This document shows positions 5,940 to 42,177 of a DNA stretch of 64,000 bases, piece by piece. Origin of the DNA: Selaginella tamariscina. Lineage: Eukaryota; Streptophyta; Lycopodiopsida; Selaginellales; Selaginellaceae. The translations under genes were made by a program, and so were the position numbers. The notes under the pieces are model-generated. The model searched no databases and had not been told where the DNA came from. It was given only the letters and a program-made list of their open reading frames with translations. The stretch is from positions 124,001-188,000 of the forward strand of contig PUQB01000453.1 of NCBI GenBank assembly GCA_003024785.1. Direction: 5' to 3'. Within the stretch, counting starts at the first letter, position 1. Every line of letters begins with the position of its first letter.

Positions 5940-7190
5940 AATAAACTAAAAGCTGCCTTTGTCCTAATTATAAATTTTACATAACTTATTTTATTAAAAG
6001 CATATATATTCAGTACATTAAATATAATATTTCCAACTCATTGCACAAAAGCAAGTTTCTGACATTCTGATATGTTACCTTCTTACATTAACAATAATAC
6101 ACAAAAATATTTAGATTGCTTTATGTAACACAATAATATAATATAATGTGTGAGAACCCGAGACACAACACAATAAATATGTGAAAAGATGTAAAAACTT
6201 AGATATATCCTTTGTATTTAAGATCTTGATTTATATATACAAAAGAAAATGTATAATTTAATTATATTTGGACTTCCTATTAAGAATTTAGTCACACCAT
6301 AAATATCTTTAATAACTTTTATAATATATTATGGTTAACCTTTGTAATTACTTTACATTATCCCCTCATGAAGAATTTTTTTTTTATTATGTAAAATGTG
6401 AGTAACAAAGGTGCTTATTGAAACTCAACATCTTGTACATGAATAAATTTAAGAGCTAACTTAATGAAGAATCTTATAAAAATCAAGCCATTTTTAGAGT
6501 GAGCCCTTTTTTATGAAGTTTTAGAAAATGCACAAAAACAAGGTCGTAAATAACAAATTAAAAAGGTGGCCAATGATAAGAATTATAATTCTATTATTAT
6601 TGAATTTATGCCCAACCCAAATGTTTTGTTAGTGCAGTAAAAAGGAAGAGCGATCTAAGTAAATCATTCAATATCGAGCTTTAATGCAAGTTGTAACTAA
6701 AATGGGCATGGCTATAGTCCCATTTCCTAATAATTAGCAATTTTAGCTATTTAATTAGCATTTTCTAATATTAAAGGAATATTCTTTAGAATATATGTTT
6801 GAAAAGAGAATATTCTTTAGAATATTCTATTTTGTATTCTACCCTTTAATAAATTATAGCATTCATTGAACAAAAATTAATAACATTATAAAAGTAGAAT
6901 GTATTAAATTATATAATATATTGCCTAATATAACAATTAAGGAAGAGCATAAGAGGTACATTATATAAATATTGATGTTGTTATTAAAATATTAATATTT
7001 AAATATAACATTATTAATTAAAAATTTGTAGTAGTAATAATATATATATAAAATCCTATAATAATATAGTCAATCTTCCATATCATTTTTTAAATTTATA
7101 TAGTTAAGTATACAATTTGGTACTATTATTAAAGAGTTTATAATAATTATGAATATTAAATATATGATATTTTATAATTTTGTAATTGCT
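5940..7190. other. AT-rich intergenic DNA with an LTR-like remnant
   Basis: Nothing coding is supported apart from the LTR-like repeat at 6148-6365. Around 6770-6830 the phrase 'gaatattctttagaatat' occurs twice as an imperfect inverted word. Confidence 0.6.
6148..6365 (+). mobile_element. LTR-like remnant, copy 1 of 3
   Basis: The sequence beginning TGTGAGAACCCGAGACA recurs, diverged, near 24408-24605 and 40485-40690. In those two places it follows Ty3/Gypsy-like gag and pol debris. The length and TG start suggest a solo LTR or LTR fragment of that old family. No target duplication was identified. Confidence 0.5.
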
Positions 7191-10100
7191 TTAAGCTTCA
7201 GAAAACATACATTCCCTTGCAGTTTTGTTAATCGTGACTTTATCAACGCTTCTTGACATCCACCCATATCGAATGGATTTAACATTTATAAAACATGCTG
7301 GGTCTTTTTGATTGGGAGACCATGTTTTCTCTAGGCATCCATTATATCTTTCGCTCTCCTTCTCGTGTCGCCTTTTTTGTGGTTTGAACCATGCAACCTT
7401 AACAATACTATTTTTTGTGATTACTTCAGGTGTGTCGATAATTTGACCCATCCAAATAGGCTGATTATATGACGCATCTGGAGTAATGAGAACCATCATT
7501 AGTTTTTGAAGATCCTTGCAGCAATCAAAGTATGCTTTAGGTTTTTGGTTCCTTTGTCCAACAAAGTGTGGGGTTTGCACTTCCACATCACTACTGGCTT
7601 CTATGTCGTCTGTGCTCAGTGATGTCATTTCAATCTCCTCTCGCCACCTTGTTTTAGGCCAAAAGGGTGTTGCAATTCTGTACTTGTGACAGTAGGCCCT
7701 TCCAACTCTCGAACAACAGTCTCCCAATAGTTGACCACATGCTTATATAGTTCTGAGTAACCAGTTGCCTTATCAGAATTCTTTGGCATCGATTTTTGAA
7801 CCCATGCCACATATTTTTTGATGCCATCAATAATAACCTCTTGTTCCTTGAGCTGGGCACTCAATGGAATAGGGTCTGGTTGTCCTTCTGGGAGAAGTGG
7901 CTTTCCATCCTCTCCACTTTTGAAGAGCATTAAGCCCTCTTTCGGTAACCACTCCTGCTCTGATGGCCGTAACTTGTACTGCATAATAGGTATACCATCT
8001 CGTATGGAGAAAAAGAATTGTAGCGGCACAAGGTGACCAACTAAAGAATCACTCCCTTCTTTTATATACTCCTTGAGAAATTTTTTGAAGTCTGGCACCT
8101 CAGTCACAAGCAAAGCACAACTTTTTTTGGAGATGCAATTTTCAAAAAGATTCATCATATGCGGTAAGGTAAGTGCACTTGTCCTTTTTGTAGAGTTGGA
8201 GACCTTGCTGAAGAACGCATCAATATCTTCATGAGTGTGACCAACCATAAGGAAACTGAGCGTGATTGTTTCAAACACACCTTTGGCAACAAGCATTGAC
8301 AAGTATGCTAGCACATATCTAGAAAATAAAAGTAAGTATGAGCTTGAGAAACCCTTAAGTAAAATGATTTACCTATTTTTGTTCTCGCCTGCACAATTAT
8401 CCATCTGTAAAAGCAAATGACGAGGAAGCTTATTTGATGTTGAGGACACATGTACACTATTTGAGCTAGATCCCTCCACTGAACCTGAACTCTCAACAGG
8501 GCCATCTGTTTTTTGTGCAGGTTGCTGACAATGCCTCTCATATTCCCAAGTAGCCTCAAGTGCAGACGTGTTCATGAGAGCATTATGTAAAGGTTGAAGG
8601 TGTTGTTTCTTCACTTTGAGATCACTGATAGGACTTGTCTGTGAGTGGGCTTCAAGGTTTCTGAAACACATGGCTAACGACCCAATAGTGAAATTGGAGT
8701 CGCTAGACCAATGTGGAAGTGAAAAGTGTCCATATGACTCACAACCGTGTCCATGTGTTAGCACACCTGTCAATGAAATCGGAAGTTTCATGACATTTCC
8801 AAGGCACTTTGGTGTTGCAAAGAGCTTTGGAATGCTGGTCTTTGAATGATCCATCTTGTCATGGATCAAGCACAGGTACTCTGATGGGCGTGACACAGAA
8901 AGCATGCGGTGTGCATAGTACTGAGACCGGCAAGTTTGTTGTGCAATCATGTGGGCCTCCATCTTCCTTTGAATGGTAGTGATCTCCACCAAGGTTTTTG
9001 CACAAGCCTCTGCAGCCTTCAATGATGTACAAGTGTCACACTTAGAAAAGCTAGAGTGTTTTGCAATCTCCACATCCTTAAAATGAGTATTCCATATGTT
9101 GTTGAAGGTACCAGTGCAGATTGCTTGGAGCCCCATCAAACTGAGGCACTTGTTCACATGTTCACACAGTTTCAATTGAGTGTAGATTGAAGGTAAAACC
9201 TTGAGATTTTCCCTGACCCCTGCATTTGTGGTTCGGCATTTGTGAGGCATCCTGTCTGCATTTGCTTCCACAAAAGCCTTGAGTATCTCTATGGCTGCCA
9301 TGATGTGAGAGCGGGTTTTGACCAAGCAGTGTTCCCATGAACTGAGGTTCGCGCTCCATCTAGCCACTCATCCCTCCGACGGTAGAACGTGGTCTTTGGG
9401 ATCCCGTATATACTGTACCAAGCTTTGAAGCAGATGGCCACCTTATTAAATACCATGGATGTACTCTGATAACCTGTGTCCGAGGCCATTCCATCAATAC
9501 ACCCAGTTAGTGCAGCATATACAAACTCATGCCTTTGCTTTTGGGTGAGCATACGAAAGACATGTCTACATTGGGTAATTTCATTCCGGTCTGCCATCTG
9601 ACAACACTTCTTCTTGCAACAGTCAATCGTGGAAATGCTCGTAACACTTTCGGAAGATGTAGGATCCATCTTTACCCTCTTGCTGAAACTTGCAGGGGAA
9701 GATCTACAACCCATGAATCGCCTTTTTCTTACAATAGGACCAATGCAAGGAACCTCTTCAAATATGAGTTGTTCTTCCGGGTTGTTATTATTGAAATCCA
9801 ACCCAGAATATGTTGAACCATCTTGCCGTCTTAATTCAGATGTTCGCCACCTCACGAGGGATCCAGGATACAATGTGCCATTAGGTGAAACCTCTGTCAC
9901 AACTACACCCACGAAGTCGGACCCTAGTTTCTCTTCTGACACTGCTTCCATTGGATTTATAGCTGTGATGATGCCTCTTCCGACTTCAATCTCACGAAGA
10001 AAGAGAATCACCTCATCCATCACAGCAGGCAAGCCATCATCTGGTAAACTCGTGCTACTATTTGTTTGTGACTCTGCATATTCTGTGTCAGCCTTGACTT

Positions 10101-10307
10101 CATCCAAATTCCACAATACAGGAGAACCCTCCTCAAATTCCATTCCCAGAACCTTGTTAAATGGTGTTCACCCATACGTACACACAAGATCCTTGGGCAA
10201 TATTGTGACATGATGCATTATTATCTCGAACTTCCACAGTTCCAGTGCCAACTATCTCGTTGTTCCGAAGAAGACATACTTTATCTCCAGTATTAAACAT
10301 ATTGTCC
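7191..10307 (-). CDS. DUF7869-like, transposase-like protein
   Basis: The minus-strand exon starts at 10307 after a TGTGCAG acceptor (first ATG at 10301) and runs to the stop at 7191. One clear GT-AG intron, 8319-8372, splits the conserved GENKN-RYVLAYL segment. The N-terminus holds two copies of a beta-type module: GDKVCLLRNNEIVGTGTV near 10250-10290, and DEVILFLREIEVGRGII near 9960-10020, followed by VGVVVTEV. Next come a Cys-rich segment (CCKKKCC), a PKTTFYRRRDEW segment, and a C-terminal domain with HDKMDHSKTSIPK (about 8838-8868), QMDNCAGENKN (8376-8404) and VGHTHEDIDAFFS (8210-8248). The last three fit the family I recall as DUF7869. The spaced acidic residues suggest an RNase-H-fold (DDE-type) transposase, which is inference. 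Frame slips lie near 10155, 9325 and 7690: decay or base-calling gaps. An upstream 5' exon is likely, because the palindrome array at 10452 lies in front. Confidence 0.7.
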
Positions 10308-10451
10308 TGCACATAAATAATTGTATTATTTATGATATCTGTTTATGCAATATTTCTAAGAAATCTGAATTACGGTTACTTAATAATATGCATATGCAAT
10401 AATACATAATTATGTTTAGAGATAATATCTCATGTTTGATTAATACAACTG

Positions 10452-10880
10452 ATGGGCGGGATTAATCCCGCCCACGAATCCCTCCGACGAGGAACGGTCG
10501 GCGGGATTAATCCCGCCGCCGACTCAACCCCTTCGGAGAGAGTCGGCGGGATTAATCCCGCCTTGGACTCCCTCCGACAAGGAAGAGCCGGCGGGATTAA
10601 TCCCGCCGCCTCTTCCTCCTCGGGGGGAGTCGGCGGGATAATCCCGCCGACAACTCTTTCTAATAAATTCTGGTAACTCCTCATCAGTTGAGAAGGTTAT
10701 CGACGGGATTAATCCCGCCACTCTTTTTCAGTGGCGGAGAAGCATTGCCCGGGAGATGGTGGCGGGATTAATCCCGCCACCTCTTCGAAGAGGCCAAAAA
10801 GAAATGGCCGGATTAATCCCGCCGGCCCGGTTAACCTAGAATATTAAGTTAAAAGGATATTTAAACGGGATAAATCCCTA
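10452..10880. repeat. Palindrome array 1 (18-bp unit, about 8-9 sites)
   Basis: The perfect palindrome GGCGGGATTAATCCCGCC, or a close variant, occurs at about 10456, 10500, 10545, 10590, 10632, 10702, 10761 and 10807, with a decayed site at 10866. The first five are about 45 bases apart. Because the word is its own reverse complement and the period is a multiple of three, both strands show open 'GGINPA' reading frames, which I treat as by-products. The array lies 5' of the DUF7869-like gene. Confidence 0.9.
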
Positions 10881-11454
10881 ACGGAATATATTATAATCCT
10901 AATGCATTCCTAAACCCCTAAATTGTAATTTTAAGAGAGAATGTAAGAGAGTGAATCTTTATAAGTATTTTTAAATTTGTTTATAATACTTACTTGTAAA
11001 CAGTACTGAAGGCCGTGCTTTCCTATAAAGAATAGCACCCAATTTAATCTCGCCCCTGAGATGATCACTATGAAGAAAAAAGAAGATCTAAAGAGTGAAA
11101 AATACAGAAATGAAGAAACCTTTGCCGGAGAAAGAACCAGATCTGAATTTGAGTGGGAAATTAAATGCATTTTCAAATTTACATGTCAGACCGACAATAC
11201 ATATGTCAGAAATTCAAATTTTTTAAAAAAGAACAGAAAAATAAAATTTAAGATGAGTTGACACAAATATCCGACACTCTGACATATATACTCTCCAGTT
11301 CCAATGAATATTTTAAAATTGCATTTAATGTTATTCAAGTGATTCAAGCTGTTTAATATTACGAAATTTTAGACTATATTCTACATTTTTAGTATTCAAG
11401 TATCTTTATATTATATATATATATATATATACTTATACAATAAATAAATTGATA

Positions 11455-12160
11455 TATTATTATGTATCATTTAAATATATTCATAGTCTGTTTATTATTA
11501 TTATTCTTAATTACTCGAGTATTTAGTTTTCATTTCCTAGTATCAATGGGATATTCTTTAATATTTTATTAATATTTGAAGAATATTCTAATATTAAACC
11601 TGATTATCATAATTAAATTAGTCTTGTTCTTAATTATTGCAGTAATTATTCTACATTTGTATATATTAATGGGATTTTCTCAATTAATTTGTTATTATTT
11701 CAAGAATATTCATGTGTTAAACCTTATTATCAATATTAAATTAATACACACTATGAACATATTTTAAATTATACATAATAATACATCATTTTATCTAATA
11801 TATAGTCATATATAGTTTTAATAATATATAATTAATATCATTTCCTTAATTACTTGAGTAATTAATCTTCTTTATATTAATGGGATATTCTTTATTATTT
11901 TCTTATTATTCTAAGAATATTCCAATATTAAACATGATTATGATAATTAATTTAGTTAATTATTTGAGTACTTAATTTACATTTGTATATATTAATGGGA
12001 TTTTCTCAATTAATTTCTTATTATTTCAAGAATATTTCAATGTTAAACCTTTTTATCAATATTAAATTAATATATATTATTAAAACTATATATGGCTATA
12101 TATTAGATAAAATCATATATTATTATGTATAATTTAAAATATGTTCCTAGTGTGTTTATT
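11455..12160. repeat. Fold-back element with internal tandem repeat
   Basis: About 76 bases at 11750-11825 are the near-perfect reverse complement of 12076-12150, so the two arms could pair around a loop of about 250 bases. A unit of about 330 bases, marked by 'atggga(t/t)attctt' and 'tgggattttctcaatta', is repeated at 11540-11770 and 11870-12070. The left border at 11455-11510 directly resembles 12115-12170. This suggests a decayed inverted-repeat transposon without coding capacity. Confidence 0.6.
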
Positions 12161-12423
12161 AATATTATTTTTCTTAATTATTCGATGTTTGTTTTGCACA
12201 CATATATAAACACAATCATAAATTTACACATGCATTACAAGAACTTACAAAAACACATATGCACACACATGCACAACCCTAAACCAAACTGAAGAAATAG
12301 GTTGCTTCTTTATTGAAAACATCATGTTCAACGCATGTATGATATATGTACTCAATCTGTGTGATTGTATGTAACACATTGAATTTACATGTGTAATATT
12401 TATATTAAGCTTGTTGGGAGCAA

Positions 12424-12451
12424 ACCCTAAACCCTAAACCCTAAACCCTAA
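12424..12451 (-). repeat. Interstitial telomere-like repeat
   Basis: About four CCCTAAA units stand in tandem, the Arabidopsis-type plant telomere repeat read on the opposite strand. Scattered TTTAGGG-like words follow at 12890-13010. Confidence 0.85.
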
Positions 12452-13039
12452 TATGTAACACAATGAATTTACTCATGTAATATGTATGTATGTCTGTGTG
12501 TATACACGTGTGCATGTATATATGTGTACTCTGTATGTATATATGTGTACTTTCTGTCTTCTCTCATACATACACACCATGCATGACCCATGTTAATATG
12601 TACTGTCTCTCTTCTCTCAACACATATACACCATGCATGATCTATAATATGTACTCGGTCTCTCTAATATTATGTACTAATATGTTGTATGTCTGTGGAT
12701 ACACGTGTGTATGTATATATTATGTGTATTAATATATGCAATGTGTATGTATGTATTGATACACATGAAACTTTAACACTCTCATGGACACACACATGTT
12801 AAATCCCTGCATGATTTATATTTTTGAGGTGTATGTGATACACCCACGCACACGCACGCGCTAATAATATAATGAAAGAATATTCGTTTAGGGCGAATCT
12901 ATATTTTATTCTTTTTAGGGTTTAAGTATATTCTCAAAAGGAATATTCTATTAGGGTTAATATATATATTTAATTCCTTTAGGGTTTAGGTATATTCTTA
13001 GGGTTTCAAGAGGCGGCGGCTGTGAAATCGGCGGGCGGC

Positions 13040-13063
13040 GGCTGTGCACACAGGTGAGATCTC

Positions 13064-13094
<31 letters not shown>

Positions 13095-13381
13095 ATATGT
13101 ATAGGAGTGTGCGTATAAATTTATTTATTAGTTTTATCTCTCGCACACACACGTACACTCCTGTGTATGTATAGTGTGTGTGGGTGTGTGTTTGTTTATC
13201 TGTATGATTTTATTTGTTTCGCTCACACACGCATACACACGATATACATATACACATATAATATATACCTATATACATATATACATACATATATTATGTT
13301 ACCAGTATCTGTAAATTTTTTTTATTGATATATCTCTCCCACACACAGCACACTGCTTTACACACACACACACACACACAC

Positions 13382-13442
<61 letters not shown>

Positions 13443-14125
13443 CAATGCATATTAACAAATAGTATACAACACTAGTTTATATATATGCTATATATTCATA
13501 TGGGTTAATATCTATATACACACATATATATATGTGTGTGTTTATCTGTATAAATTTTATTTATTTATTAGTTTTATCTCTCGCACACACACGCACACTC
13601 CTGTGTATGTATATGTGTGTGTGTGTGTGTTTATCTGTATGATTTTATTTGTTTCGCTCACACACGCATACACACAATATACATATACACATATATATAT
13701 ACCATAACATATATACATACATACAACACTAGTTTATATATTATATACACAGACTCTCTCTCTTTCTCTATAGATTATATATCTATATACACACATATAT
13801 ATTGTGTGTTTATCTGTATAATTTATTTATTTATTAGTTTTATCTTTCGCACACACACGCACACTCCTGTGTATATATATGTGTGGTGTTGTGTTTATCT
13901 GTATGATTTTATTTGTTTCGCTCACACGCATACACACGATATACATATACACACATATATATACCTATGTACACACATATATTAGGTGTACCAGTACTGT
14001 ATATAATTTTATTATTTATCTATCTCTTGCACACACACGTACACTCCTATACATACATACATACATACATATATATATATATATACACACACACACATAT
14101 ATATATGTGTGTTTTTTATCTCGCT
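13040..14125. repeat. Tandem microsatellite-rich block, 3-4 diverged units
   Basis: A composite unit is repeated from about 13120, 13550 and 13820, with a partial unit near 14000. Each holds 'ttagttttatct', 'cgcacacacacg', 'cactcctgtgta', 'gtttatctgtatgatttta' and 'gtttcgctcaca'. Between the units lie TG, CA and TA runs, the longest being TA at about 13388-13440. Open frames here are low-complexity artefacts. Confidence 0.8.
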
Positions 14126-14852
14126 AAGCCCCTCGAGCGACGGGATTAATCCCGCCGCTATGGTTTATAGCCTCGGCGGCGGGATTAATCCCGCCGCTAT
14201 ATGGTTGGGGCCATGGCGGCGGGATTAATCCCGCCGCCGAGGCCCCTCACGCAAGTTATGGGCGGCGGGATTAATCCCGCCACTCTACGACAAACCGAAG
14301 AGCGGCGGGATTCATCCCGCCGCCCATAACCTGCGTGAGGGGCCTCGGCGACGGGATTAATCCCGCCGCTCACCCATAACCTGCGCGGAATGCGGCGGGA
14401 TTTATCTCGCCGGCAATGGCCTGTGTGAAGGTTCTAATGGGCGGGATAAATCCCGCCGGATTCCGCGCAGGGCATTTACAGGGATGGGCGGCGGGATTAA
14501 TCCCGCCGCCGAGGCCCCTCACGCAGGCCATGGGCGGGATTAATCCCGCCGCTCTTCGGTTTGTCGTAGAGCGGCGGGATTAATCCCGCCGCCCAGGGAA
14601 TTCACGCAGGACATGAACGGCGGGATTAATCCGGCCCACGCTCATGCCCTTCGCGGAGGGCGGCGGGATTAATCCCGCCGCTCAGGCACTTCCGCAGGAT
14701 ATAAGCGGCGGGATTAATCCCGCCCCCACCATCCCTGTTCAAAAATGCCGCAGCCAATATATATGTGTGAGCGCATGATTTACGAGAGGGCGGCGGGATT
14801 AGCCTCCGAACCTTCATTACCCGGTGGCGAGATTAATCTCCGAACCTTCATT

Positions 14853-14927
14853 ACCCCATTGGTATGTTGAATCAATCCCGACTAACTCTGTCTGAGACGG
14901 AGAAGGTTTACAAAATACCAATGGAGG
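14853..14927. repeat. Short inverted-end insert in the array, copy 1 of 3
   Basis: A block of about 73 bases starts CCATTGGTATGTTG and ends with a matching ATACCAATGG. It carries 'ctgtctgagacggagaaggtt' in its middle. Related blocks lie at 15714-15787 and, with a changed left arm, at 15400-15475. All three interrupt the palindrome array at comparable places. Confidence 0.6.
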
Positions 14928-15399
14928 GAACTGAGAAGGGTGGTGGGATTAATTTCACCATCCCTTACATGGTGGGTGGGATTAATCCCGCCGCGTACGC
15001 ATGCCCTGCGCGGAATCGGGCGGGATTTATCCCGCCGCCATTGGCCTGCCTGAAGGGCCTAGGCGGCGGGATTAATCCCGCAAGATTTCGCACAGGGCAT
15101 TGGCGTTCGGCGGGATTAATCCCGCCGACTAAGGCCCAAGTGAAGGGCCTGGGAGGCGGGATTAATCCCGCCGGACGCCAATTCCTGCTCGGAATCGGGC
15201 GGGATTAATCCCGCTGCCATTGGCCTGTCTGAAGTGCCTAGGCGGCGGGATTAATCCCGCCCGATTTCCGAGCAGGGAATTGGCGTCCGGCGGGATTAAT
15301 CCCGCCGCATAGGGACCGAGTGAAGCCCTGGGCGGCGTGATTAATCCCGCCGAGTCTCAATGCCTGTTGGAGGAATGAATCCCGCCACCCTTCCTTTGT

Positions 15400-15475
15400 T
15401 TCTCCATTGGTGAGTCGGACCAAATCCCAAACGTTTCTGTCTGAGACGTAGAAGGTTTTCAACATACCAATGGAG
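15400..15475. repeat. Short inverted-end insert in the array, copy 2 of 3
   Basis: It resembles 14853-14927, with CCATTGGTGAG on the left and ATACCAATGG on the right. Confidence 0.6.
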
Positions 15476-15713
15476 AGAATTGGGAAGAGTGGGGAAATTC
15501 ATTTAACCATCACTTACATGGTGGGCGAGATTAATCCCGCCTCCTTTCTGGAGTCACTGAAGGGGTGTGAGAAATAAATCGCGCAGGGAATTGGCGTCCG
15601 GCGGGATTAATCCCGCCGCATAGGGATGGAGTGAAGGCCCTGGGCGGCGGGATTAATCCCGCCGAGTCTTCAATGCCTGTTGGAGAAATGAATCTCCCCA
15701 CCCTTCCCTTTTT

Positions 15714-15787
15714 CCTCCATTGGTGAGTTGGACCAATCCCAAACGTTTCTGTCTAAGACGTAGAAGGTTTACAACATACCAATGGAG
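15714..15787. repeat. Short inverted-end insert in the array, copy 3 of 3
   Basis: It is nearly identical to 15400-15475. The two lie in a local direct duplication of about 310 bases within the array. Confidence 0.6.
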
Positions 15788-16131
15788 GGGACTGGGAAGG
15801 GTGGCGAGATTCATTTAACCATCCCTTACAGGTGGGCAAGATTAATCCCGCCTCCTTTCTGGAGTCACTGAAGGGGTGTGAGAAATAAAATCCTGCCCAG
15901 TTCTCTCTGAGACCGAGAAGGGTGGCAAGATTAATTCCGCACTCCCGTTCAAGGCCTCCAGAAAGGTGGCGAGATTAATCCCGCCCCACTCTTTCAGGAG
16001 GCATTGAAGGGGTGGCGAGATTAATTTTTCATGTGAATATATATGTGTAGTATATATAAGTTGCATATCTCATTTTATTTACTTTTATCATCTTATCATA
16101 ATATTTCGAGTAAAAGCTAGGAATCTATGTA

Positions 16132-16222
16132 AAACTGTCCAGAGCTCACATTTGTGGTGGTTCTAAAACGAAAATGTTATCTTTCTTTTGCACTAACACA
16201 AATGTGAGCTTCGGACAGTTAA
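16132..16222 (+). ncRNA. Conserved hairpin, copy A (miRNA-like, unproven)
   Basis: Arms at 16134-16157 and 16196-16219 pair over about 24 bases with one mismatch and one G-U pair, and the loop is about 40 bases. The copy in unit B keeps the stem with compensating changes (see findings). It stands between the palindrome array and the ParB-methylase-like gene. It could be a small-RNA precursor, a leader structure or a tiny inverted-repeat element; the sequence alone does not decide. Confidence 0.4.
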
Positions 16223-16249
16223 TTACGTCTACTTCTCTCTATGTATTAT

Positions 16250-16382
16250 TTTTGTATATTCGGGTTTTATACAAGTGTGTGTGCGTTTTTTATATAATTT
16301 ATATTTATAGTGTATATTTTGCTTGTATATTCGGGTTTATACAAGTGTGTGTGCGTTTTTATATAATTTATATTTATAGTGA
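16250..16382 (+). repeat. Tandem repeat of about 66 bases in the leader or 5' intron
   Basis: A unit with 'tgtatattcgggtttta', then 'acaagtgtgtgtgcg', then 'tatataatttatatttatag' occurs twice in a row. It lies just before the acceptor that opens the first recognisable exon at 16393. Unit B has only one copy. Confidence 0.8.
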
Positions 16383-16392
16383 TTATTTTGCA

Positions 16393-19300
16393 GAAGGACG
16401 ATTTGATCAAACAAGGAGATCGAGTCATTAGTATGGAGTCGTCGTCAAATTCTGGGGTAAGAATTAAAATAAAATCTGTTATACTCGGATACTTGAACTA
16501 ATCATTTTTGTATTCAGATGTGGAATTGAGGTGACATTAAAGACAAGAGCAGGAGAAGAGATGGGCAGGGGGATTCTGGAATCAACTTGGCCATATTTTA
16601 AGATAAATGGGAAGCGCATTGGAGCAACCATGGTTGCTGTCAAATTAACCTCTGTCACATCTCATGGACAAGCAAAACAATGGAAAGTAGATTCGCTAGT
16701 CAAGCACCCGAAAGCAGGCTGCGAACCCAGATTGGACGATGCTCGACACATATGCCTTGTTCCATCCAATGTCACGTTCTCGGATCCAGAGGTCGTCAGT
16801 TACAACATTAATTCGGGTGGTTTTGTCGACTTGTGGATAATGACGTTCACGTGTTCACTAATGATGTTGACCTTGGAGTTCTTCTTCAACTCAACGAAAG
16901 CCCATCTATGGAGGGGATCCATCTGGATGTCTACTTCGAAGATCTTCAGACTCATCGAGTAGGTGTATTGTCAGGAGATATTGCTTCACAATACAGAAAA
17001 TCAGCAAGTGGAGCAATCTTCCCTCTTCACATTGAAGAAGAACACAGCGACATCATAAGGGAGATTGAGAGGTGGCTCGGTCTCAGGTTCTCTACAGATC
17101 ACGTTCAATTTGCTTAGGAAGCTTCGGGAGCTGGAAGAGTGTGCCGAGAACACTAGAACAGCTGCAGTCGGGGATCACACATGTTGATTCGGATCGCAAA
17201 AGAAAATCATCAATCGTTTTGTCAGCTGCACCTGTGGCATCTCATGCTGCAATAAGTCACAAGGAAATGATGTTGGATGATAAGATTTATCCTTGTAGGG
17301 TTAAATATTGCAGCGTCAACCCAAACTTCAATTACAGGCCACTCAACCAGGAACGTGTAGCTGAGCTCATGGAGAAGATGAAGGACGACAATTCTTATAC
17401 CGTTCCACATAATGCTGTTTTGTGTCCATACTATGAAAGAAGGAAGGGTGCTGACAAAGTCTGGATCACAACACCAGAACAACTCATGAAGATTCAGACG
17501 GAGAATAAAAATCTATCAAGTACTACATCATTAGTGGCCAGCACACAATAACGGCAGCCCAACGACTTCTCGATGAACACAACAAAGGAACGATGGCAAC
17601 AAAACTTTCCGAGCATACCCGTGAGAAGCTGACAAAAAGATCGGCGTTTTTAGCTAAGCCGAATCTCACAATCGAGCAGTACCATAAGTTATCGGCGGAA
17701 TGGGACGCTGCCGACACCAACCACTACAACAGCAAAATATGGGAGAAGTTTAAACACACGCGAGCCGTGTGGGAATCTCTTCAGCGACCACAAAGAGCTA
17801 CCGCAGGGAATACACAATCTGCGGAATACCGGGTAAGCAAATTGTTTGGGCGGGATTTATCTCGCCGGTATATTAATCTGTCTTTTTCCTCAGAGAGTTG
17901 AAGAAATTGCAGCAGTTGATTTTGCCCAGGTGGGCGGGAAGGAAACATCATTTCTGATGATGTTGATTTCTTGCCCCGAAGATAGGATCTTTGCCAAATG
18001 GTTGGGGATTATGGAATCCTTTTCAAAAGGAACACTGAAGAAGAAGCAGACAAGTGAAGGGGAGCCCTCAGAAAAGTCTGCAAAGAAACCCAGTAAGACG
18101 CCGAAGGCTAAGTCTGTTCAATCTACAAAGGATGTAGACAACGATTTCAAGCTCACATGGTTGAAGCCTTTAAATGGAACAACGATGGAGGAGATGGAAG
18201 TCTTGGCTGATTTGGTGATCGATGGCAAACTACAAATTAATAACAGCAGCCCAACCTCTCCTTTTCATCTCAAGGCAATGGAGTTGAAGACGGTCAGGCA
18301 TTTCAAGGAGTGGTTGGGAATACACTGCCACAAACTGGGTTGGACCTCGACTTCAACATATGAAGAGGTCAGCAAATATTTGCATGTGACGAACGATGAT
18401 ATGCTTGTCGAATGGGTGAACCAATCGGAAGATCTAGGCAAGAATCTATTGCACGCCAACGCCAAAAAGGAGAACATTGGGATGACGCCTTCTCTTATGG
18501 CAGTCCTTCAGCAGCGGAGAACCGAATTGAACCTTATAAAGGAGGATGCTACGAATCACGACAAGCCCTACAGATGTTTGTTGTTAGATTCGGAGACTTT
18601 ATGGGGTAACATCACTGCTTGTAGGAAACCGTTTCAATTGTTCGTGATGGATCGGCGGGTGTCAAAAAATCTTTCGACAGATAGGGCACTAGAGGATCTG
18701 GTGGAGAAACTTAGCCGTGCAAGCATATACATAGAAGGTATTTATTATTGAATTCATGCTTGCGCTCTTCACTGATACCTACTTTTTCAGGTATTTATTT
18801 CTTGATTCTTGCTCATGTCACCGATACTTTTGCCTTCGCCTTCGCCAAGAAGAATAGACATCGTTGGACAGGATTTTATATGAACGATGCTAATCCCAAG
18901 TGCATTGATACTGTTGTTCACTTGGTTGTTAGGAATGCGCCAAACAATTTCAAGCTTCCAAATGACTGGCCAGGCATCTGTTTGCACTCCAACGGCCCTG
19001 AACCTCCATCCGATACACCGATAGGTATGAGTGACGTATTCGGCAATGTACGTTATCCAAACATTACAAGTCAAGCGGCACGGAGCATCGTCAACTTGAT
19101 CAGGGGTCCTCACAGTGATGCGTGGGTTTTTGACTACTGCACTAGGGGGTCCGTCTTGAAGGAGTGTTACCTTCGGCATACATGTGTGTTTGCCGTTGAA
19201 AGGATAAGACCATGGTTGAGGACCTGAACAAGTGGATAGATTGGGTCTCAACTGAGTACCCCAACGAATCCATAAAGGCGTATTTGAGAAAGTTCCCTCC

Positions 19301-19538
19301 AGATAAGTGCGATAGCTCTGAAGGTGAATCTGGTTCAATCTCGGAGTCTGAGAACGAACTTCAATCAGATATTAGACCGGAAGTTATCTCGAGGAGTACA
19401 GAACATTCGCACACTCCAGGACCCATGGAAACATCAATAGAAGATGCAGAAGATCTTGAACCATCTCACAAGCGGCTTAGACCTTCTTCGCCTCATTCAG
19501 AAGGTAATAGCGAAGAAGAATTGATAATGAATTGATAG
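16393..19538 (+). CDS. ParB-like / N4-N6-methylase-like fusion protein, copy A
   Basis: The first visible exon opens at 16393 after TTTTGCAG and reads KDDLIKQGDRVISMESS (ATG at 16433). Introns (GT-AG): 16457-16517, 17833-17893, 18738-18790. Domain order: a beta module with EEMGRGILESTWP and ATMVAVKLTSVTS; a ParB/sulfiredoxin-like domain (YRPLNQERVAELMEKM, then YYIISGQHTITAAQRLL at 17530-17559); a Lys-rich linker; then a methylase-like domain in beta-class order, with FQLFVMDRRVSKN where DPPY-type motif IV belongs (18650-18661) and FDYCTRGSVLKEC, then VFAVEKD, as motif I (about 19125-19200). An acidic Ser-rich tail ends at 19538. Bacterial and phage proteins join ParB_N to N6_N4 methylases in this order. 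DRRV for DPPY and GQHT for GxHR suggest lost or altered catalysis. Frame slips near 16456, 16830, 17100, 17515 and 19205 may be base-calling gaps. Role unknown. Confidence 0.65.
17849..17868. promoter_or_regulatory. Palindrome-array word inside an intron, copy A
   Basis: GGGCGGGATTTATCTCGCC, a variant of the array palindrome (also seen near 14392), occupies the 61-base intron 17833-17893. The same word is kept in the matching intron of unit B at about 32117. Confidence 0.7.
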
Positions 19539-19605
19539 AGTGATGAATAGTTGTAAATGAGTGTAACATAAGGCATTTTTGTATATTTCTTTTATATTTG
19601 TACAG

Positions 19606-20977
19606 AAAATAAATTCTCAAGGATTAATGAAGCTTTTAGTTCAAACATGGGTCACACATTAACAAGGTAAATAATATACCTTGATAATTTTAAGGTCAGC
19701 TAATTATCATTTTGCAGATGTAATGAAATAATTGAGAACATGGATTTTCAGCATTGCCATGAGGTAAGAGAGGGGTTTGGCGACAATTTCTTGTGCCACA
19801 TGTCAGAATGACAGAGTTCATGCAGGAAATGGATAATAATGCAGCTCAAAACATCGTTACCATGGGGGCCACTTCAGTTTTTCATCATCATTTTTATTGG
19901 CTTCAGTTCCGAAATCAATTTCTTCAGCGCATGCAATATCTGAATCTTGTAAGGATGATGTACAATTAAATGATGAAGGGATAGGCAACGAATAGTGGCA
20001 ACGGATAAATGTGAAAGGGAGCAAACAAGTGATTTGCAAAGTATTCAAGAGGCAACGCTATCTCATGTTACTCATGGCCATATTGTGTTGTTGGATGTCA
20101 ATGGTGTTCTGCTTCATCGACAAAGGCCCAGGATAGAAAAAAGAAATCAAACAAGGAGATTTCATTCCTTGTCATGGTAAATTTCGATATGATATTATTT
20201 TTCGTCCAGGGTTGGATCGTCTCTTTCAAAAGCTTAAGGAGATGGGTGCGCTTGTGGGGATTTGGTCATGCATGCAGATTCATAACTTAACACCGCTGTT
20301 GTTTACTTAAGAAACATTGTAGTGTTGCAGAAGAGGTGATTCGTAAAGATTGGATTTTTGACCAGCGAATGTGTCATAAACCTCTCGAATTTCACAATAT
20401 AAGAAAGGAAAGCAAGCCATACTTCTTCAAGAATGAAAGGAAATATTGGGCTCATGGGGAGATCAGTCGCTTAAGGATAACGAAGAATGCACATATCTTA
20501 GTAGTAGACGACTCTCCTCAGAAGGCTATGCTCAACCAAAACATTGCTTGTATTCATCCAATCACTTTCGATCCATATTCTGATACCGATATCATGGATG
20601 AGCTAGTGAACTACTTGGATACGTGCCTCAGAAAGAAGAATCTCGAAAATTTTTGTGAGCAGTATCCACCGTATCATACATTTCCTGAAGCTTTTCTTTC
20701 TCGTGATATTGAATTTTATAAAATGAAGGATAGCAACCGGGCGCTTTATAATATTATTCTTAAGGAACGTCAGTTTTTAGATGAGCCTTTATGCAGACCT
20801 TCTCTTATCACATCTTATGTATTAACAAGGATGGCAACTCCCAATTGCATTCGTGAGAGTGTTAAGTGGTGGCAACAACATCAAGATATTGACCAAAATG
20901 ATTTGATTAATCCGGAGAGTGATGATTTAGACAAAATGAAAAGATTTCTTTGTATGATAGAAAGAAAGTATTTATAA
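19606..20977 (+). CDS. HAD superfamily, FCP1/NIF-like phosphatase-like protein, copy A
   Basis: Candidate exons are 19606-19666, 19718-19763 and 19826-20977, with GT-AG borders; a possible own start is the ATG at 19647 (MGHTLTR). HAD signatures: HIVLLDVNGVLLHR (motif I, about 20094), FRPGLDRLFQKLKEMGALVG, then IWSCM (motif II), KPYFFKNERKYW, and HILVVDDSPQKAM (DD motif, 20507-20512). The tail (NLENFCEQYPPYHTF, FYKMKDSNRALYNIILKERQ) is open to 20977. Plant NIF/FCP1-like proteins use D-L-N-G in motif I; the second Asp of DxDx is Asn here, so the general acid may be missing. Frame slips near 20130 and 20290. The upstream frame can be joined to the ParB-methylase-like gene by a plausible splice (19503 to 19606), so this may be its C-terminal domain. 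Substrate unknown. Confidence 0.6.
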
Positions 20978-21283
20978 AAAATTAACATGTTGATAAGAAA
21001 ATGATTTCATTTGTAATTATGTTTGATAGTATTTCTTCATTATTGTAAACTATTTTTAGAATAATATGAATATTCTAAGATATTTTAGGAATATTCCTTA
21101 CTAAGTAAGGTTATTGAAGGATTAATTAATTAATTAATTAATATTTAAGGCTTAATTACATATTAATTAAATGATTAATTAATAATTAAAACTTAAGTAT
21201 TAATTAGTAATTTATTTTATATTCCCATTTTCACGTATCATGCCCTTTAGTTACAATGTGCATTTTAGTAGCAATTTCTTGGT

Positions 21284-26010: not shown

Positions 26011-26015
26011 TTATA

Positions 26016-28173: not shown

Positions 28174-28219
<46 letters not shown>

Positions 28220-29384: not shown

Positions 29385-29449
29385 GAACCCTTACAACTTG
29401 ATAATTATACTGGCCGTCGATTGCCTCTTAGAACTAACGGTCAGAGACT

Positions 29450-30069: not shown

Positions 30070-30350
30070 CATGGTGGGCGAGATTAATTTTGGATAGTTT
30101 AAAACTGGAGAAATATGTTGCTTAATGATACTAATTTCACCATCCCTTACATGATGGGTGAGATTAATCCCGCCGCCTTTTTGGAGCCCCTGAAGGGGTG
30201 TGCCAAATAAATCCTTCTCAATTCTCTCTGAGATCGAGAAGGGTGATGGGATTAATCTCGCACACTCATTTAGGACCTCCAGAAAGGTGACGAGATTAAT
30301 ACTGCTCACCTTTCAGCAGGCATAGAAGGGGTGGCGAGATTAATCCGTCC
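30070..30350. repeat. Decayed palindrome array of unit B
   Basis: About six sites related to GGCGGGATTAATCCCGCC (near 30075, 30156, 30245, 30290, 30330) have lost one or both CCGCC arms. They correspond to 15830-16030 in unit A. Confidence 0.75.
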
Positions 30351-30459
30351 CACCTTCCATGTGAATATATATGTGTATTAATATATATAAGTTGCATATC
30401 TCATTTTATTACTTTTATCATCTTATCATAATATTTTGAGTAAAAGCCAATAAACTATA

Positions 30460-30553
30460 TGAAACTGTCTAAAGCTCACATTTGTAGTGATTCTAAAACC
30501 AAATGTTATTTGTCTTTTGCACTATCACAAAAGGTGAGCTTTAGACAGTTAAT
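30460..30553 (+). ncRNA. Conserved hairpin, copy B
   Basis: The arm starting AACTGTCTAAAGCTCAC (about 30463) pairs with the arm ending GTGAGCTTTAGACAGTT (about 30534-30550). The stem of about 17 bases is perfect, followed by a looser part. It has the same position relative to the gene as copy A. Confidence 0.4.
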
Positions 30554-30685
30554 CCCATTCACTTCTCTCTGATACAAAAGAGGGGTGTATGTGAATTTAT
30601 CTGTGTATTAATTTTGTTTATTTGGGTTTATATAGGTGTGTATGTGTTTTTATATGAATTATATTCATAGTGTATTATTTTGCAG

Positions 30686-33600
30686 AAGGACGATTTGATT
30701 AAGCAAGGAGATTCAGTCATTAGTATGGAGTCGTCATCAAATTCTGGGTAAGAATTAAAATAAAATCTGTTATACTTAGATATGTGCTTGAAGAAATATC
30801 ATTTTGTATTCAGATGTGGAATTGAGGTGACATTGAAGACGAGAGCAGGAGAAGAGATGGGCAGGGGGATTCTGGAATCAACTTGGCCATATTTCAAATA
30901 AACGGGAAGCGCATTGGAGCAACCATGGTTGCTGTCAAACTAACCTCTGTCACATCGCATGGACAAGCAAAACAATGGAAAGTACTAGTCAAGCACCGAA
31001 AGCAGTGCAACCCAGATTGGACGATGCTCGACACATATGCCTTGTTCCATCCAATGTCACGTTCTCGGATCCAGAGGTCGCCAGTTACAACATTAATCTC
31101 GGGTGGTTTGTCGACTTGTGGATAATGATGTTCACGTGTTCACTAATGATGTTGACCTGGAGTTCTTCTTCAACTCAACGAAAGCCCATCTATGGAGGGG
31201 ATCCAATTAGATGTCTACTTCGAAGATCTTCAGACTCATCGAGTAGGTGTATTCTCAGCAAGATTGCTTCACAATACAGAAATCCACAAGTGGAGCAATC
31301 GTCCCTCTTCACATTGAAGAAGAACACAGCGATCATAAGGAGATTGAGAGGGTGGCTCGGTCTCAGGTTCTTTACAGATCACGTTCAATTTGCTTAGAAT
31401 TTCGGGAGCTGGAAGAGTGTGCCGAGAACATTAGAACAGCTCAATCGGGGATCACACATGTTGATTCGGATCGTAGAAGAAAATCATCAATCGTTTTGTC
31501 AGCTGCACCTGTGGCATCCCATGCTGCAATAAGCCACAAGGAAATGATGTTGGATGATAGGATTTACGAGTGTAGGGTTAAGTATTGCAGCGTCAACCCA
31601 AACTTCAATTACAGGCCACTCAACCAGGAACGTGTAGCTGAGCTCATGGAGAAGATGAAGGACGACAATTCTTACACCGTTCCACATAATGCTGTTTTGT
31701 GCCATACTACGAAGAAAAAAGGCGCTGACAAAGTGTGGATCACAACACCAGAACAAATGAAGATTCAGACGGAGAATAGAAAATCAATCAAGTACTACAT
31801 CATTAGTGGCCAGCACACAATAACGGCAGCCCAACGACTTCTCGATGAACACAACAAAGGAACGATGGCAACAAAACTTTCCGAGCATACCCGTGAGAAG
31901 CTGACAAAAGATCGGCGTTTTTAGCTAAGCCGAATCTCACAATCGAGCAGTACCATAAGTTATCGGCGGAATGGGACGCTGCAGACACCAACCACTACAA
32001 CAGCAAAATATGGGAGAAGTTCAAACACACGCGAGCCGTGTGGGAATCTCTTCAGCGACCACAAAGAGCTACTGCAGGGAATACACAATCTGCGATACCG
32101 GGTAAGCAAATTGTTTGGGCGGGATTTATCTCGCCGGTATATTAATCTGTCTTTTTTTTCAGAGAGTTGAAGAAATTGTAGCAGTTGATTTTGCCCAGGT
32201 GGGCGGGAAGGAAACATCCTTTTTGATGATGTTGATTTCTTGTCCCGAGGATAGGATCTTTGCCAAATGGTTGGGGATTATGGAATCCTTTGCAAAAGGA
32301 ACACTGAAGAAGAAGCAGACAAGTGAAGGGAGCCCTCAGAAAGTCTGCAAAGAAACCCAGTAAGACGCCGAAGGCTAAGTCTGTTCAATCTACAAAGGAT
32401 GTAGACAACGATTTCAAGCTCACATGGTTGAAGCCTTTAAATGGAACAACGATGGAGGAGATGGAAGTCTTGGCTGATTTGGTGATTGATGGCAAACTAG
32501 ATTAACAACAGCAGCCCCACCTCTCCTTTTCATCTCAAGGCAATGGAGTTGAAGACGGTCAGGCACTTCAAGGAGTGGTTGGGAATACACTGCCACAAAC
32601 TGGGTTGGACCTCGGCTTCAACATACGAAGAGGTCAGCAAATATTTGCATGTGACAAACGATGATATGCTTGTCGAATGGGTGAATCAATCGGAAGATCT
32701 GGGCAAGAATCTATTGCACGCCAACAAAAAGGAGAACATTGCGATGACGCCTTCTCTTATGGCAGTCCTTCAGCAGCGGAGAACCGAGTTGAACCTTATA
32801 AAGGAGGATGCTACGAATCACGACAAGCCCTACAGATGTTTGTTGTTGGATTCGGAGACTTTATGGGGTAACATCACTGCTTGTAGGAAACCGTTTCAAT
32901 TGTTCGTGATGGATCGGCGGGTGTCAAAAAATCCTTCGACAGATAGGACACTAGAGGATTTGGTGGAGAAACTTAGCCGTGCAAGCATGTACAAAGAAGG
33001 TATTTATTATTGAATTCATGCTTGCACTCTTCTGATACTACGTTTTCAGGTATTTATTTCTTGATTCTTGCTCATGTCACCGATACTTTTGCCTTCGCCT
33101 TCCAAGAAGAATAAACATCGTTGGACAGGATTTTATATGAATGATGCTGATCCAAGTGCATTGATACGGTTGTTCACTTGGTTGTTAGGAATGCGCCAAA
33201 CAATTTCAAACTTCCAAATGACTGGCCAGGCATCTGTTTGCACTCCAACGGCCTGAACCTCCATCCGATACACCGATAGCTGAGAGGACGTATTCGGCAA
33301 TGTACGTTATCCAAACATTACAAGTCAAGCGGCACGGAGCATCGTCAACTTGATCAGGGGTCCTCACAGTGATGCGTGGGTTTTTGACTACTGCACTAGG
33401 GGGTCCGTCTTGAAGGAGTGTTACCTTCGGATACATGTGTGTTTGCCGTTGAAAAGGATAAGACCATGGTTGAGGACCTGAACAAGTGGATAGAGAGGTT
33501 CTCAACTGACTACCCCAACAAACCCATACAGGAGTATTTGAGAAAGTTCCCTCCAGAAGTGCGATAGCTCTGAAGACGAATCTGGTTCAATGTCGGAGTC

Positions 33601-33787
33601 TGAGGACGAACTTCAATCAGATATTAGACCGGAAGTTATCTCGAGGAGTACAGAACATTCACACTCCATTACCCATGGAAACATCAACAGAAGATACGAA
33701 GATCATGAACCATCTCACAAGCGGCTTAGACCTTCTTCGCCTCACTCAGAAGGTAATAGCGAAGAAGAATTGTTAATGAGTTCTTAG
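30686..33787 (+). CDS. ParB-like / N4-N6-methylase-like fusion protein, copy B
   Basis: The exon opens at 30686 after TTTTGCAG, with ATG at 30725; the intron layout is the same as copy A. The first donor reads cleanly here (TCTGG followed by GTAAG) and gives the continuous junction NSGCGIEVTLKTRAGEE, which supports the exon model. ParB-like signature SIKYYIISGQHTITAAQRLL is at about 31785-31830. Motif-IV-like FQLFVMDRRVSKN and motif-I-like FDYCTRGSVLKEC are unchanged from copy A, so the unusual DRRV is not a base-calling accident. Frame slips occur at several places, mostly different from those in copy A (for example near 30897, 31140, 31330, 31915, 32335, 32500, 33560). That pattern is expected if many are sequence errors, though decay is not excluded. 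The acidic Ser-rich tail ends at 33787. Confidence 0.65.
32116..32136. promoter_or_regulatory. Palindrome-array word inside an intron, copy B
   Basis: GGGCGGGATTTATCTCGCC lies within the short intron between about 32102 and 32161, identical to the word in unit A. Confidence 0.7.
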
Positions 33788-33853
33788 AGTGACGAATAGT
33801 TGTAAATGAGTGTAACATAAGGCATTTTTTATATTTCGTTTATATTTGTACAG

Positions 33854-35135
33854 AAAATAAATTCTCAAGGATTAATGAAGCTTTTAGTTCAAACATGGGT
33901 CACACATTAACAAGGTAAATAATATACCTTGATAATTATAAGGTCAGCTAACTATCATTTTGCAGATGTAATGAAACAGTTGAGAACATGGATTTTCAGC
34001 ATTGCCATGAGGTAAGAGAGGGGTTTGGCAAAAATTTCTTGTGCCACATGTCAGAATGACAGAGTTCATGCAGGAAATGGATAATAATGCAGCTCAAAAC
34101 ATCGTTACCATGGGGACCACTTCAGTTTTTTCATCACATTTTATTGGCTTCAGTTCCGAAATCAATTTCTTCAGCGCCTGCAATATCTGAATCTTGTAAG
34201 GATGATGTACAATTAAATGATAAAGGGATAGGCAACGATATAGTGTCAACAGATAAATGTGAAAGGGAGCAAACAAGTGAGTTGCAAAATTCAAGAGGCA
34301 ACGCTACCCATGTTACCATGGCCATATTGTGTTGTTGGATGTCAATGGTGTTCTGCTTCATCGACAAAGGCCCGAGGATAGAAAAAAGAAATCAAACAAG
34401 GAGATTTCATTCCTTGTCATGGTAAATTTCGATATGATATTATTTTTTGTCCAGGGTTGGATCGTCTCTTTCAAAAGCTTAAGGAGATGGGTGCTTGTGG
34501 GGATTTGGTCATGCATGCAGATTCACAAACTTGACACCGCTGTGAATTTGCTTAAGAAACATTGTAGTGTTGCAGAAGAGGTGATTCGTAAAATTGGATT
34601 TTTGACCAGCGAATGTGTTATAAACCTCTCGAATTTCAAATATAAGAAAGGAAAGCAAGCCATACTTCTTCAAGAATGAAAGATTAATTGGGCTTTATGG
34701 GGAGACAATTAGTTAAGGATAATGAAGAACGCACATATCTTAGTGGTAAATGACTCTCCTCTGAAGGCTATGCTTAACCAAACATTCAGAAGAGAGAATC
34801 TCGAAAACTTTTGTGAGCAGTATCCACCGTATCAAACATTTCCTGATATTTTTCTTTTTCGTGATTTTGAGTTTTATAAAATGAAGGATAGTAACCGGGC
34901 ACTTTACAATATTATTCTTAAGGAACGTCATTTTTTAGATGAGCCTTTATGCATACCTTGTCTTATTACATCTTATGTATTAACAAGGATGACAACTTCT
35001 AATACATTTGTGAGAGTGTTAGGTGGTGGTAACAACATTAAGATATCAACTAAAATGATTCGATTAATTCGGAGAGTGATGATTTAGACAAAATGAGGAG
35101 ATTTCTCTGTATGGTTAGGAAGAAAGTATTTATAA
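33854..35135 (+). pseudogene. HAD FCP1/NIF-like gene, copy B, with internal loss
   Basis: Exons match copy A (first exon from 33854 after TTTGTACAG). The segment VPKSISSAPAISESCKDDVQ and GHIVLLDVNGVLLHRQRP are readable, as is HILVVNDSPLKAML. Compared with copy A about 110 bases after that motif are missing (the part coding for the HPITFDPYSDTDIMDEL region), and the first Asp of the DD motif is Asn. The tail NLENFCEQYPPYQTF follows directly. With other frame slips this copy is probably not functional. The lost segment is still present in the two downstream partial copies. Confidence 0.6.
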
Positions 35136-35321
35136 AAAAATTAACATGTTGATAAGGAAATGATTTCATTTGTACTTATGTTTAATAGTATTTTTTAATT
35201 ATTGTAAACTATTTTTAGAATGAAGAATAATATGAATATTCTAAGATATTCTAGGAATATTCCTTACTAAGTAAGGTTATTGAAGGATTAATTTGTTAAT
35301 TAATTAATAATTAAAACTTAA

Positions 35322-35637
35322 GGCCCACTTTCCACTAGCGGGTGGTTATTTGGCCGGTGGTAAATTAAAATAATGCCACGTCATTAATTATTACTACCAC
35401 TGTGCTTTCCATTAAAGTGGTTAATTGAATTAAAAAATAAATTAGTAATGCATATTATTTATTTATCAATTATTATAAACATATATATATTTATATAATA
35501 TGTAATAAATGTGCACCTACTCAGTATTTTTAATTAAAAAAATATATTAAAACTCTAACTTTTCATTGTTATTTTTTTATATAGAATGATTAATTATAGT
35601 TTACTAATGTCTTTCTATATGTATGTGTATAACAATG

Positions 35638-35704
<67 letters not shown>

Positions 35705-36145
35705 ACAAAACATGTGAGTGTTTGAGAGAAAGAGAGATCTACAATAACTTATGTTTTTTCTGCAAAATAAGTATATTAACTGATGTGTCTAATATATATA
35801 TAATATTCTTACATGTAAATGAGTGATATTTTGCTAATTAAAGTTCTAATTTATTTATTTTTTCATTGATTTTTTTGAAAAGCTAAAAAAAGTAAAACCT
35901 AATTTCATTAATTGATACACGTGTCATTCAATTATGCCCGGTAGCCATACAACCGGGCAAAATTGCCCGGTTATTAGGCTACCACCGAAAAAGCCATGTA
36001 GGCGCCACATAGGTGCCACGTAAGTGCCATGTAGATTATAAATTATAAATAACCAGCAAGTGGAAAACCAAACCCATGGTAGAATAAATAATTTCTTTAT
36101 TTTGATTGGTTGAGGCAATTAACCACCGCTAGTGGAAAGTGGGCC
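35322..36145. mobile_element. PIF/Harbinger (Tourist-like) non-autonomous DNA transposon, 824 bp
   Basis: Terminal inverted repeats begin GGCCCACTTTCCACTAGCGG at both ends and continue to about 28 bases with small differences. TAA flanks both sides (35319-35321 and 36146-36148). The empty site aactTAAgtatt is preserved in the paralogous blocks near 21190, 36930 and 37715, which proves insertion and a TAA target duplication. No transposase frame is present. Confidence 0.92.
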
Positions 36146-36214
36146 TAAGTATTAATTAATAATTTATTTTATATTCCCATTTTCACGTATCATGCCCATT
36201 TTAGTTACAACGTG

Positions 36215-37003
36215 TATATAATGAAGAACGCACATATCTTAGTAGTAGACGACTCTCTTCAGAAGGCTATGCTTAACCAAACATTACTTGTATTCATTTA
36301 ATCACTTTCGACTTTATTTTGATACCAATACCATGGATGAGCTAATGAACTACTTGGATACGTGCCTCAGAAAGAAAAAATCTCGAAAACTTTTGTGAGC
36401 AATATCCACCGTATCAAACATTTCCTGACGTTTTTTTTTTTCGTGATTTTGAATTTTATAAAATGAAGGATAACAACCGGGCGCTTTACAATATTACTCT
36501 TAAGGAACGTCATTTTTTAGATGAGCCTTTAGTGCAGACCTTGTCTTATTACATCTTATGTATTAACAGGATGACAACTTTAACTACATTCGTGAGACTG
36601 TTAGGTGGTGGCAACAATCAACTAAAATGATTCAATTAATCCGGAGAGTGATGATTTAAACAAAATGAGGAGATTTCTTTGTATGGTTAAGAAGAAAGTA
36701 TTTAAAAAAAATTAACATATTGATAAGGAAATGATTTCATTTGTACTTATGTTTGATATAATTTTTTATTATTATAAACTATTTTTAGAACGAAGAATAA
36801 TATGAATATTCTAAGATATTTTAGGAATATTCCTTATTAAGTAAGGTTATTAAAGGATTAATTTGTTAATTAATTAATATTTAAGACTTAATTACATATT
36901 AATTAAATAATTAATTAATAATTAAAACTTAAGTATTAATTAGTAATTTATTTTATATTCCCATTTTCACGTATCATGCCCATTTTAGTTACACGTGTAT
37001 ATA
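36215..37003 (+). repeat. Tandem copy of HAD 3' end block, copy 2
   Basis: It begins with the phrase that codes for KNAHILVVDDS and runs through the tail of the HAD gene and its AT-rich 3' flank to 'ttttagttaca'. It lacks the 5' half of the gene and has frame breaks, so it is a pseudogene fragment. Confidence 0.85.
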
Positions 37004-37795: not shown

Positions 37796-37799
37796 AAAA

Positions 37800-42170: not shown

Positions 42171-42177
42171 GCTTATA

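Follow-up and report, generated by a model that had tools for sequence, protein, structure and literature searches.

The stretch analysed here, a 64,000-nucleotide window of the Selaginella tamariscina genome (contig PUQB01000453.1, positions 124,001 to 188,000 of the forward strand), carries two arrays of a perfect 18-bp palindrome, GGCGGGATTAATCCCGCC, between a DUF7869 gene and a divergently oriented ParB/methylase-like gene. Both arrays sit inside a transposon with recognisable ends, a context that an earlier sequence-only reading of the window had missed. The element is a large DNA transposon, apparently of DDE type, that is abundant in the genome and whose copies closely resemble one another (Table 1). 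That reading had described about 40 palindromes in two arrays, and the count holds: allowing up to three mismatches, 36 matches (19 of them exact) lie inside positions 10452-16030 and 40 in the whole window, the four outside the arrays being at 17849, 30157, 30333 and 32118, against none in 100 shuffled controls. The reported spacing of 44-45 bases is likewise recovered, with 159 of 263 neighbour distances of 150 bases or less (from ten elements, some of them partial) falling at 43-46 bases and tandem periods of about 45 and about 90 detected in the arrays; at 10.5 bp per turn this makes 4.1-4.4 helical turns, so the figure of four is a rough one. Also borne out is the picture of GC-rich islands in AT-rich DNA, the GC fraction reaching about 0.55 in array 2 (1-kb bins) against 0.22-0.31 between the arrays. 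Array size varies from copy to copy, from 7 to 17 and from 12 to 31 sites (up to four mismatches). A short, internal telomere-type repeat, AAACCCT, is found between the two arrays at 12422-12451.

Alignment of element copies revealed sharp common ends, with inverted repeats that start ATGCA. Seventeen end pairs elsewhere were compared, 16 of them true and one mispaired on purpose: nine are flanked by identical 4-bp duplications, whereas permuted pairs predict 0.12; seven of the 16 true pairs have no identical 4-bp duplication. Of the 24 combinations of length and offset that we tabulated, none besides 4 bp rose above 3 of 17, and neither a 3-bp duplication (0 of 17, at any of four offsets) nor an 8-bp duplication (0 of 17) was found. 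Across the genome (300.7 Mb in 1,391 contigs), the end pattern occurs 3,173 times at up to one mismatch (1,620 + 1,553); as this counts left and right ends, we estimate about 1,600 elements. Some ends on contigs C1 and C25 face apart at distances close to the length of one element (13.8 and 15.2 kb), for which chance or nesting are possible explanations. Exact copies of GGCGGGATTAATCCCGCC number 27,128 in the same genome; the reversed string gave none.

The places listed for the palindrome all lie on contig C1, in 11 groups, six of which are pairs of clusters 3.0-3.8 kb apart, like those of the window. Nine of the 11 groups were retrieved: the six fetched in full all have a DUF7869 gene on one side and a ParB-like gene on the other (6 of 6), and the three fetched in part all have one of the two genes (3 of 3). 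Two places stand outside this count, C1:2057730-2059107, with four sites, and the isolated site C1:2071485, where the fetched stretch showed neither a DUF7869 nor a ParB-like match nearby. The association of the arrays with these two genes, proposed from the window alone, is upheld, and the opposing prospect of arrays spread genome-wide with no link to these gene families is only half realised: genome-wide they are, unlinked they are not at the loci examined.

Table 1. Features of the palindrome-bearing transposon in the window
Feature	Positions	Strand	Basis and remarks
Transposon copy holding both arrays	6684..21263 (14,580 bp)	.	homology to other copies starts and stops here; inverted repeats located
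Left target-site duplication, TTTA	6680..6683	.	identical to 21264-21267
Right target-site duplication, TTTA	21264..21267	.	
Left terminal inverted repeat	6684..6711	+	end pattern common genome-wide
Right terminal inverted repeat	21239..21263	-	
DUF7869 gene, DDE-transposase-like	7191..10300	-	PF25273, open reading frames, conserved acids, model; inferred intron; a frame change interrupts this copy
Array 1	10455..10823	.	7 palindromes, up to 3 mismatches; upstream of DUF7869 gene
Array 2	14139..15985	.	29 palindromes, up to 3 mismatches; upstream of ParB-like gene
Long hairpin	16110..16240	+	between array 2 and ParB-like gene; -47.5 kcal/mol, z -7.5
ParB/methylase-like gene	16433..19535	+	inferred introns; frame changes interrupt this copy; start and end by inspection
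Single palindrome	17849..17866	.	2 mismatches; inferred intron between ParB-like and methylase-like exons
HAD/NIF phosphatase-like gene	19977..20977	+	open reading frames; PF03031 match in another copy
Second, truncated copy	30134..37788	.	ParB-like half and right end; decayed sites 30157, 30333, 32118

The claim that the palindromic core is kept while the spacers decay is confirmed by comparison between elements. In aligned blocks of array 1 the mismatch is 4.1% for the core and 7.3% for the spacer; the corresponding values for array 2 are 2.9% and 4.1%. Core mismatch lies below spacer mismatch in 30 of the 31 element pairs listed, which are not mutually independent, and above it in one (P2-P5, array 2). 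Information per position is 1.2-2.0 bits in the core against 0.01-0.49 outside it, a contrast inflated by the choice of sites for their core similarity. Spacers show little conservation, and some copies contain similar ones in opposite orientations. Isolated from the arrays, one palindrome stands at the matching position of the putative intron in all eight elements that include the ParB-like gene.

The gene products of the element are recognisable to different degrees. The DUF7869 profile (PF25273) scores 95.4 and 50.3 bits against a curated cut-off of 26, and the protein looks like a DDE transposase, as judged partly from a model. When a distant DUF7869 query was compared with the same genome, the 37 matches scored out of 5,485 candidates all had 32% identity and near-equal scores, and each spanned residues 279/280-1217 of the 1250-residue query in a single frame containing one stop, which we take to be intronic because the window copy has an inferred intron. 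The ParB assignment comes from a weak match to phrog_1033 (PHROGs; E 0.032) in one piece only, from the window's second copy; searches of PDB sequences with the ParB-like part and with alignments of its relatives gave no match, and the window pieces gave no Pfam match to a methylase domain. The predicted phosphatase is supported by a PF03031 match above cut-off (3.1e-10) in another element copy, the window's own pieces of the gene giving none. The hairpin is 91-100% identical in all eight elements whose retrieved part reaches it, and may act as a small-RNA precursor or as another site for a protein.

Relatives of this gene set are accompanied by other palindromes. When prokaryote genomes were scanned for DUF7869, a single locus came up, the 4.3-kb contig L030 in a cyanobacterial assembly, where it is probably contamination from a eukaryote; contigs L030, L067 and L068 of this assembly, filed as a cyanobacterium, carry eukaryotic-looking transposon genes, which are probably contamination. 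L030 encodes an uninterrupted DUF7869 relative of 963 amino acids, 28.6% identical to the window protein, flanked on both sides by a second palindrome, AGTTTAGCTCGAsTCGAGCTAAACT, with three sites at up to three mismatches and 11 at up to nine, where resampled sequence averaged 0.32 and never exceeded 2. When its assembly was searched with this palindrome (up to two mismatches), the only further hits fell on contigs C243 and C269. Each carries a sister palindrome, TTCAGCTCGAsTCGAGCTGAA, at three sites and encodes a ParB-like protein followed by an inferred intron and a methylase-like exon; C243 also bears a HAD/NIF gene (PF03031, 2.4e-14). Together the three contigs hold 22 sites at up to four mismatches, 11 of them perfect dyads, and the two palindrome forms differ by matched changes on both arms; in variants such as ATCAGC...GCTGAT, too, the two arms are altered jointly. 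Given that these contigs are short and need not all belong to a single element or organism, the gene package of these relatives is put together from one assembly rather than read from one continuous element. Between window and relatives, tblastn with the ParB-like part gives E 0.011 and 0.028, and a motif pair recurs (YYIISGQH / FWIINGQH). In viral contigs neither relatives of DUF7869 nor of the ParB-like/methylase-like alignments were found, and the second palindrome occurred 0 times; the 18-mer occurred once in one viral contig, which we took as chance.

A third palindrome type accompanies a diverged ParB-like relic in the Selaginella genome itself (about 33-52% identity in longer pieces). 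Its sites, around GGATAAATCC, lie upstream of the relic gene and in its inferred intron: seven at up to six mismatches in 2.4 kb, against 0.19 in resampled sequence, and one in the next 7.4 kb. Window family, relic and the other assembly all have palindromes at the junction of ParB-like and methylase-like exons, the intron positions being inferred in each.

We favour, with somewhat better than even confidence, a reading of the arrays as family-specific sites of an element-encoded protein acting in VANC- or TNPA-like regulation or anti-silencing, with the ParB-like protein the likeliest reader. An element protein, most likely the ParB/methylase-like one, would bind, as a symmetric dimer, to the perfect 18-bp palindrome at many noncoding places, including both divergent promoters and the intron; by coating only the DNA of its own family it would keep promoters active or leave the DNA marked, and so would counteract host silencing or set the level of transposition, as VANC does on VANDAL and TNPA on Spm. 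The presence of sites at promoters and in the intron, the conservation of their cores, the changing copy number and the different palindromes of relatives match the published VANC/TNPA-type pattern. Since palindromes differ between the families examined, site and protein would have diverged in step, and the differences among distant relatives suggest a private address tag that each family's own protein reads. Palindromes accompany the ParB-like gene on contigs showing no DUF7869 gene, for which reason the binder is probably the ParB/methylase-like protein. Judged from sequence, the earlier proposal of a protein-binding array upstream of both genes appears partly supported and is the best available, and among the three functions it had offered (transposase sites, a parS-like centromere, a regulatory cluster) regulatory or element-marking sites seem to fit best. 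A bolder extension, possible but in our view doubtful, is that the lineage co-opted a phage-type ParB-methyltransferase for self-recognition, in which case the ParB-like part would load on family palindromes in promoters and introns, the methylase would mark the element's own DNA against silencing, and site and protein would coevolve.

Several observations weigh against the favoured reading. Binding could instead be the work of a host factor or of the DUF7869 protein, which stays a candidate because L030 has a DUF7869 gene and palindromes with no ParB-like gene seen, though the contig is only 4.3 kb long. The domain assignments are weak: Pfam and NCBIfam gave no match near cut-off for the ParB-like pieces of the window, protein searches with the gene (6,925 and 344 candidates) gave none at E<=0.001, and a single-sequence structure model of the ParB-like part, with a predicted local distance difference test (pLDDT) score of 40, was not used. 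In the relatives the ParB domain has no Pfam or PHROGs match, and the methylase profile PF01555 appears under cut-off (E 0.033) in one of the two; hhalign pairs the ParB-like parts of window and relatives at E 4.3e-4 but with a probability of 34%, and their methylase-like parts do not align significantly (E 0.25). Core conservation, at sites selected by similarity, is only moderate, and modest in array 2. Finally, two-mismatch sites in the window family are asymmetric in 39 cases and symmetric in one, so that compensatory change is not seen within this family.

We rank an element-encoded reader first, ahead of host-factor sites, transposase sites and structural DNA, with a partition array last. 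We consider it unlikely that the element has captured the binding sites of a host transcription factor to drive its own promoters. Their position upstream of both genes would suit such a role, and the arrays contain 61 of the window's 66 occurrences (both strands) of GGCGGGA, which resembles an E2F half-site; yet the stricter E2F consensus TTTSSCGC is found 0 times in the arrays and five times in the window, the palindromes of relatives are quite different, and sites also lie within inferred introns. A little less probable again is direct use of the sites by the DUF7869 transposase in excision, in the manner of subterminal repeats. The DUF7869 gene adjoins array 1, and in L030 the palindrome lies on both sides of that gene, but the arrays lie inside the element, some 3.8 kb away from its left end, and the terminal repeats look like cut signals. 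At up to five mismatches, no site falls within 3 kb of the left end in five of five elements, and only the intron-place site falls within 3.5 kb of the right end (one site in five of five), which disfavours the idea that the palindromes serve synapsis of the ends.

Still lower in our estimation stands the possibility that the arrays are structural DNA, forming hairpins or cruciforms or grown as a tandem repeat by slippage, with no sequence-specific binding. Perfect dyads, tandem periods of about 45 and about 90, spacers alike in both orientations in some copies and the strong adjoining hairpin are what such DNA might show, but 27,128 sites retain the sequence itself and not just its symmetry, cores are less variable than spacers, and the isolated intron-place site is kept in eight of eight elements. 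A parS-like centromere or partition array, for which a ParB-like domain possibly encoded alongside is the one positive sign, and a weak one, we regard as highly improbable: the element is a dispersed, integrated transposon, and no ParA match appeared among the open reading frame pieces scanned from the window and one other copy.

A long tandem duplication (15813-29947 and 30134-46175, pieces about 83-94% alike) covers part of the transposon together with a class II aminoacyl-tRNA synthetase gene (PF00152). Elsewhere in the window, a block of about 1.6 kb is duplicated at 56445-58037 and 61988-63615, with 67-68-bp tandem repeats starting ACCCTAAGTCAACTAGGG, and a xyloglucan fucosyltransferase match occurs among the window proteins.

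Literature searches returned no paper on DUF7869 and no match for ATTAATCCCGCC, and, judged by titles and the openings of abstracts, nothing like this element, an absence that rests on these searches only. What emerges is an abundant plant transposon with a gene set that literature searches did not show in print, and a candidate case of coevolution between protein and palindrome, in which related gene sets go with different palindromes. Should the ParB/methylase-like protein prove to be the reader, parts of prokaryote type would here have been assembled into a system for self-marking or anti-silencing.

Parts of this arrangement have counterparts in known systems. ParABS likewise has clustered palindromes beside a ParB-like gene, but the parS palindrome differs from GGCGGGATTAATCCCGCC, and here the setting is a dispersed, integrated transposon in which the open reading frame pieces scanned show no ParA match. 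Ginger elements (PMC2836005) reportedly also make 4-bp duplications, a likeness by description only. ParB folds fused to N6 or N4 methylases have been described in phages, and mobile elements, too, have been linked to ParB folds (PMC12704722); the present case, in contrast, is a DNA transposon of a eukaryote that combines a DDE-like gene with a palindrome array, and its domain assignments are weak.

The closest parallels lie among plant transposons, although ends and duplication length place the element in neither VANDAL nor CACTA. The target duplication of VANDAL and other MULE elements is about 9 bp, a length that the present 4-bp duplication does not reach. In CACTA elements, repeated motifs that differ between families are reported to be bound by a TNPA-type accessory protein (PMC2613891). 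The motifs of CACTA/Spm are subterminal, with CACTA ends and a 3-bp duplication, whereas the present arrays are internal, with ATGCA ends and a 4-bp duplication. VANC proteins are reported to target a short motif within quickly changing tandem repeats in noncoding regions of VANDAL elements, families differing in motif and that of VANC21 being the 9-base YAGTATTAY (PMC5735166, PMC10398659). The present element departs from that system in its 18-bp palindrome, its 4-bp duplication and its DUF7869, ParB/methylase-like and HAD-like genes, and binding is here a prediction only; it shares with VANDAL and VANC of Arabidopsis family-specific motif repeats, arrays of varying size and, as predicted, an accessory protein that reads them.

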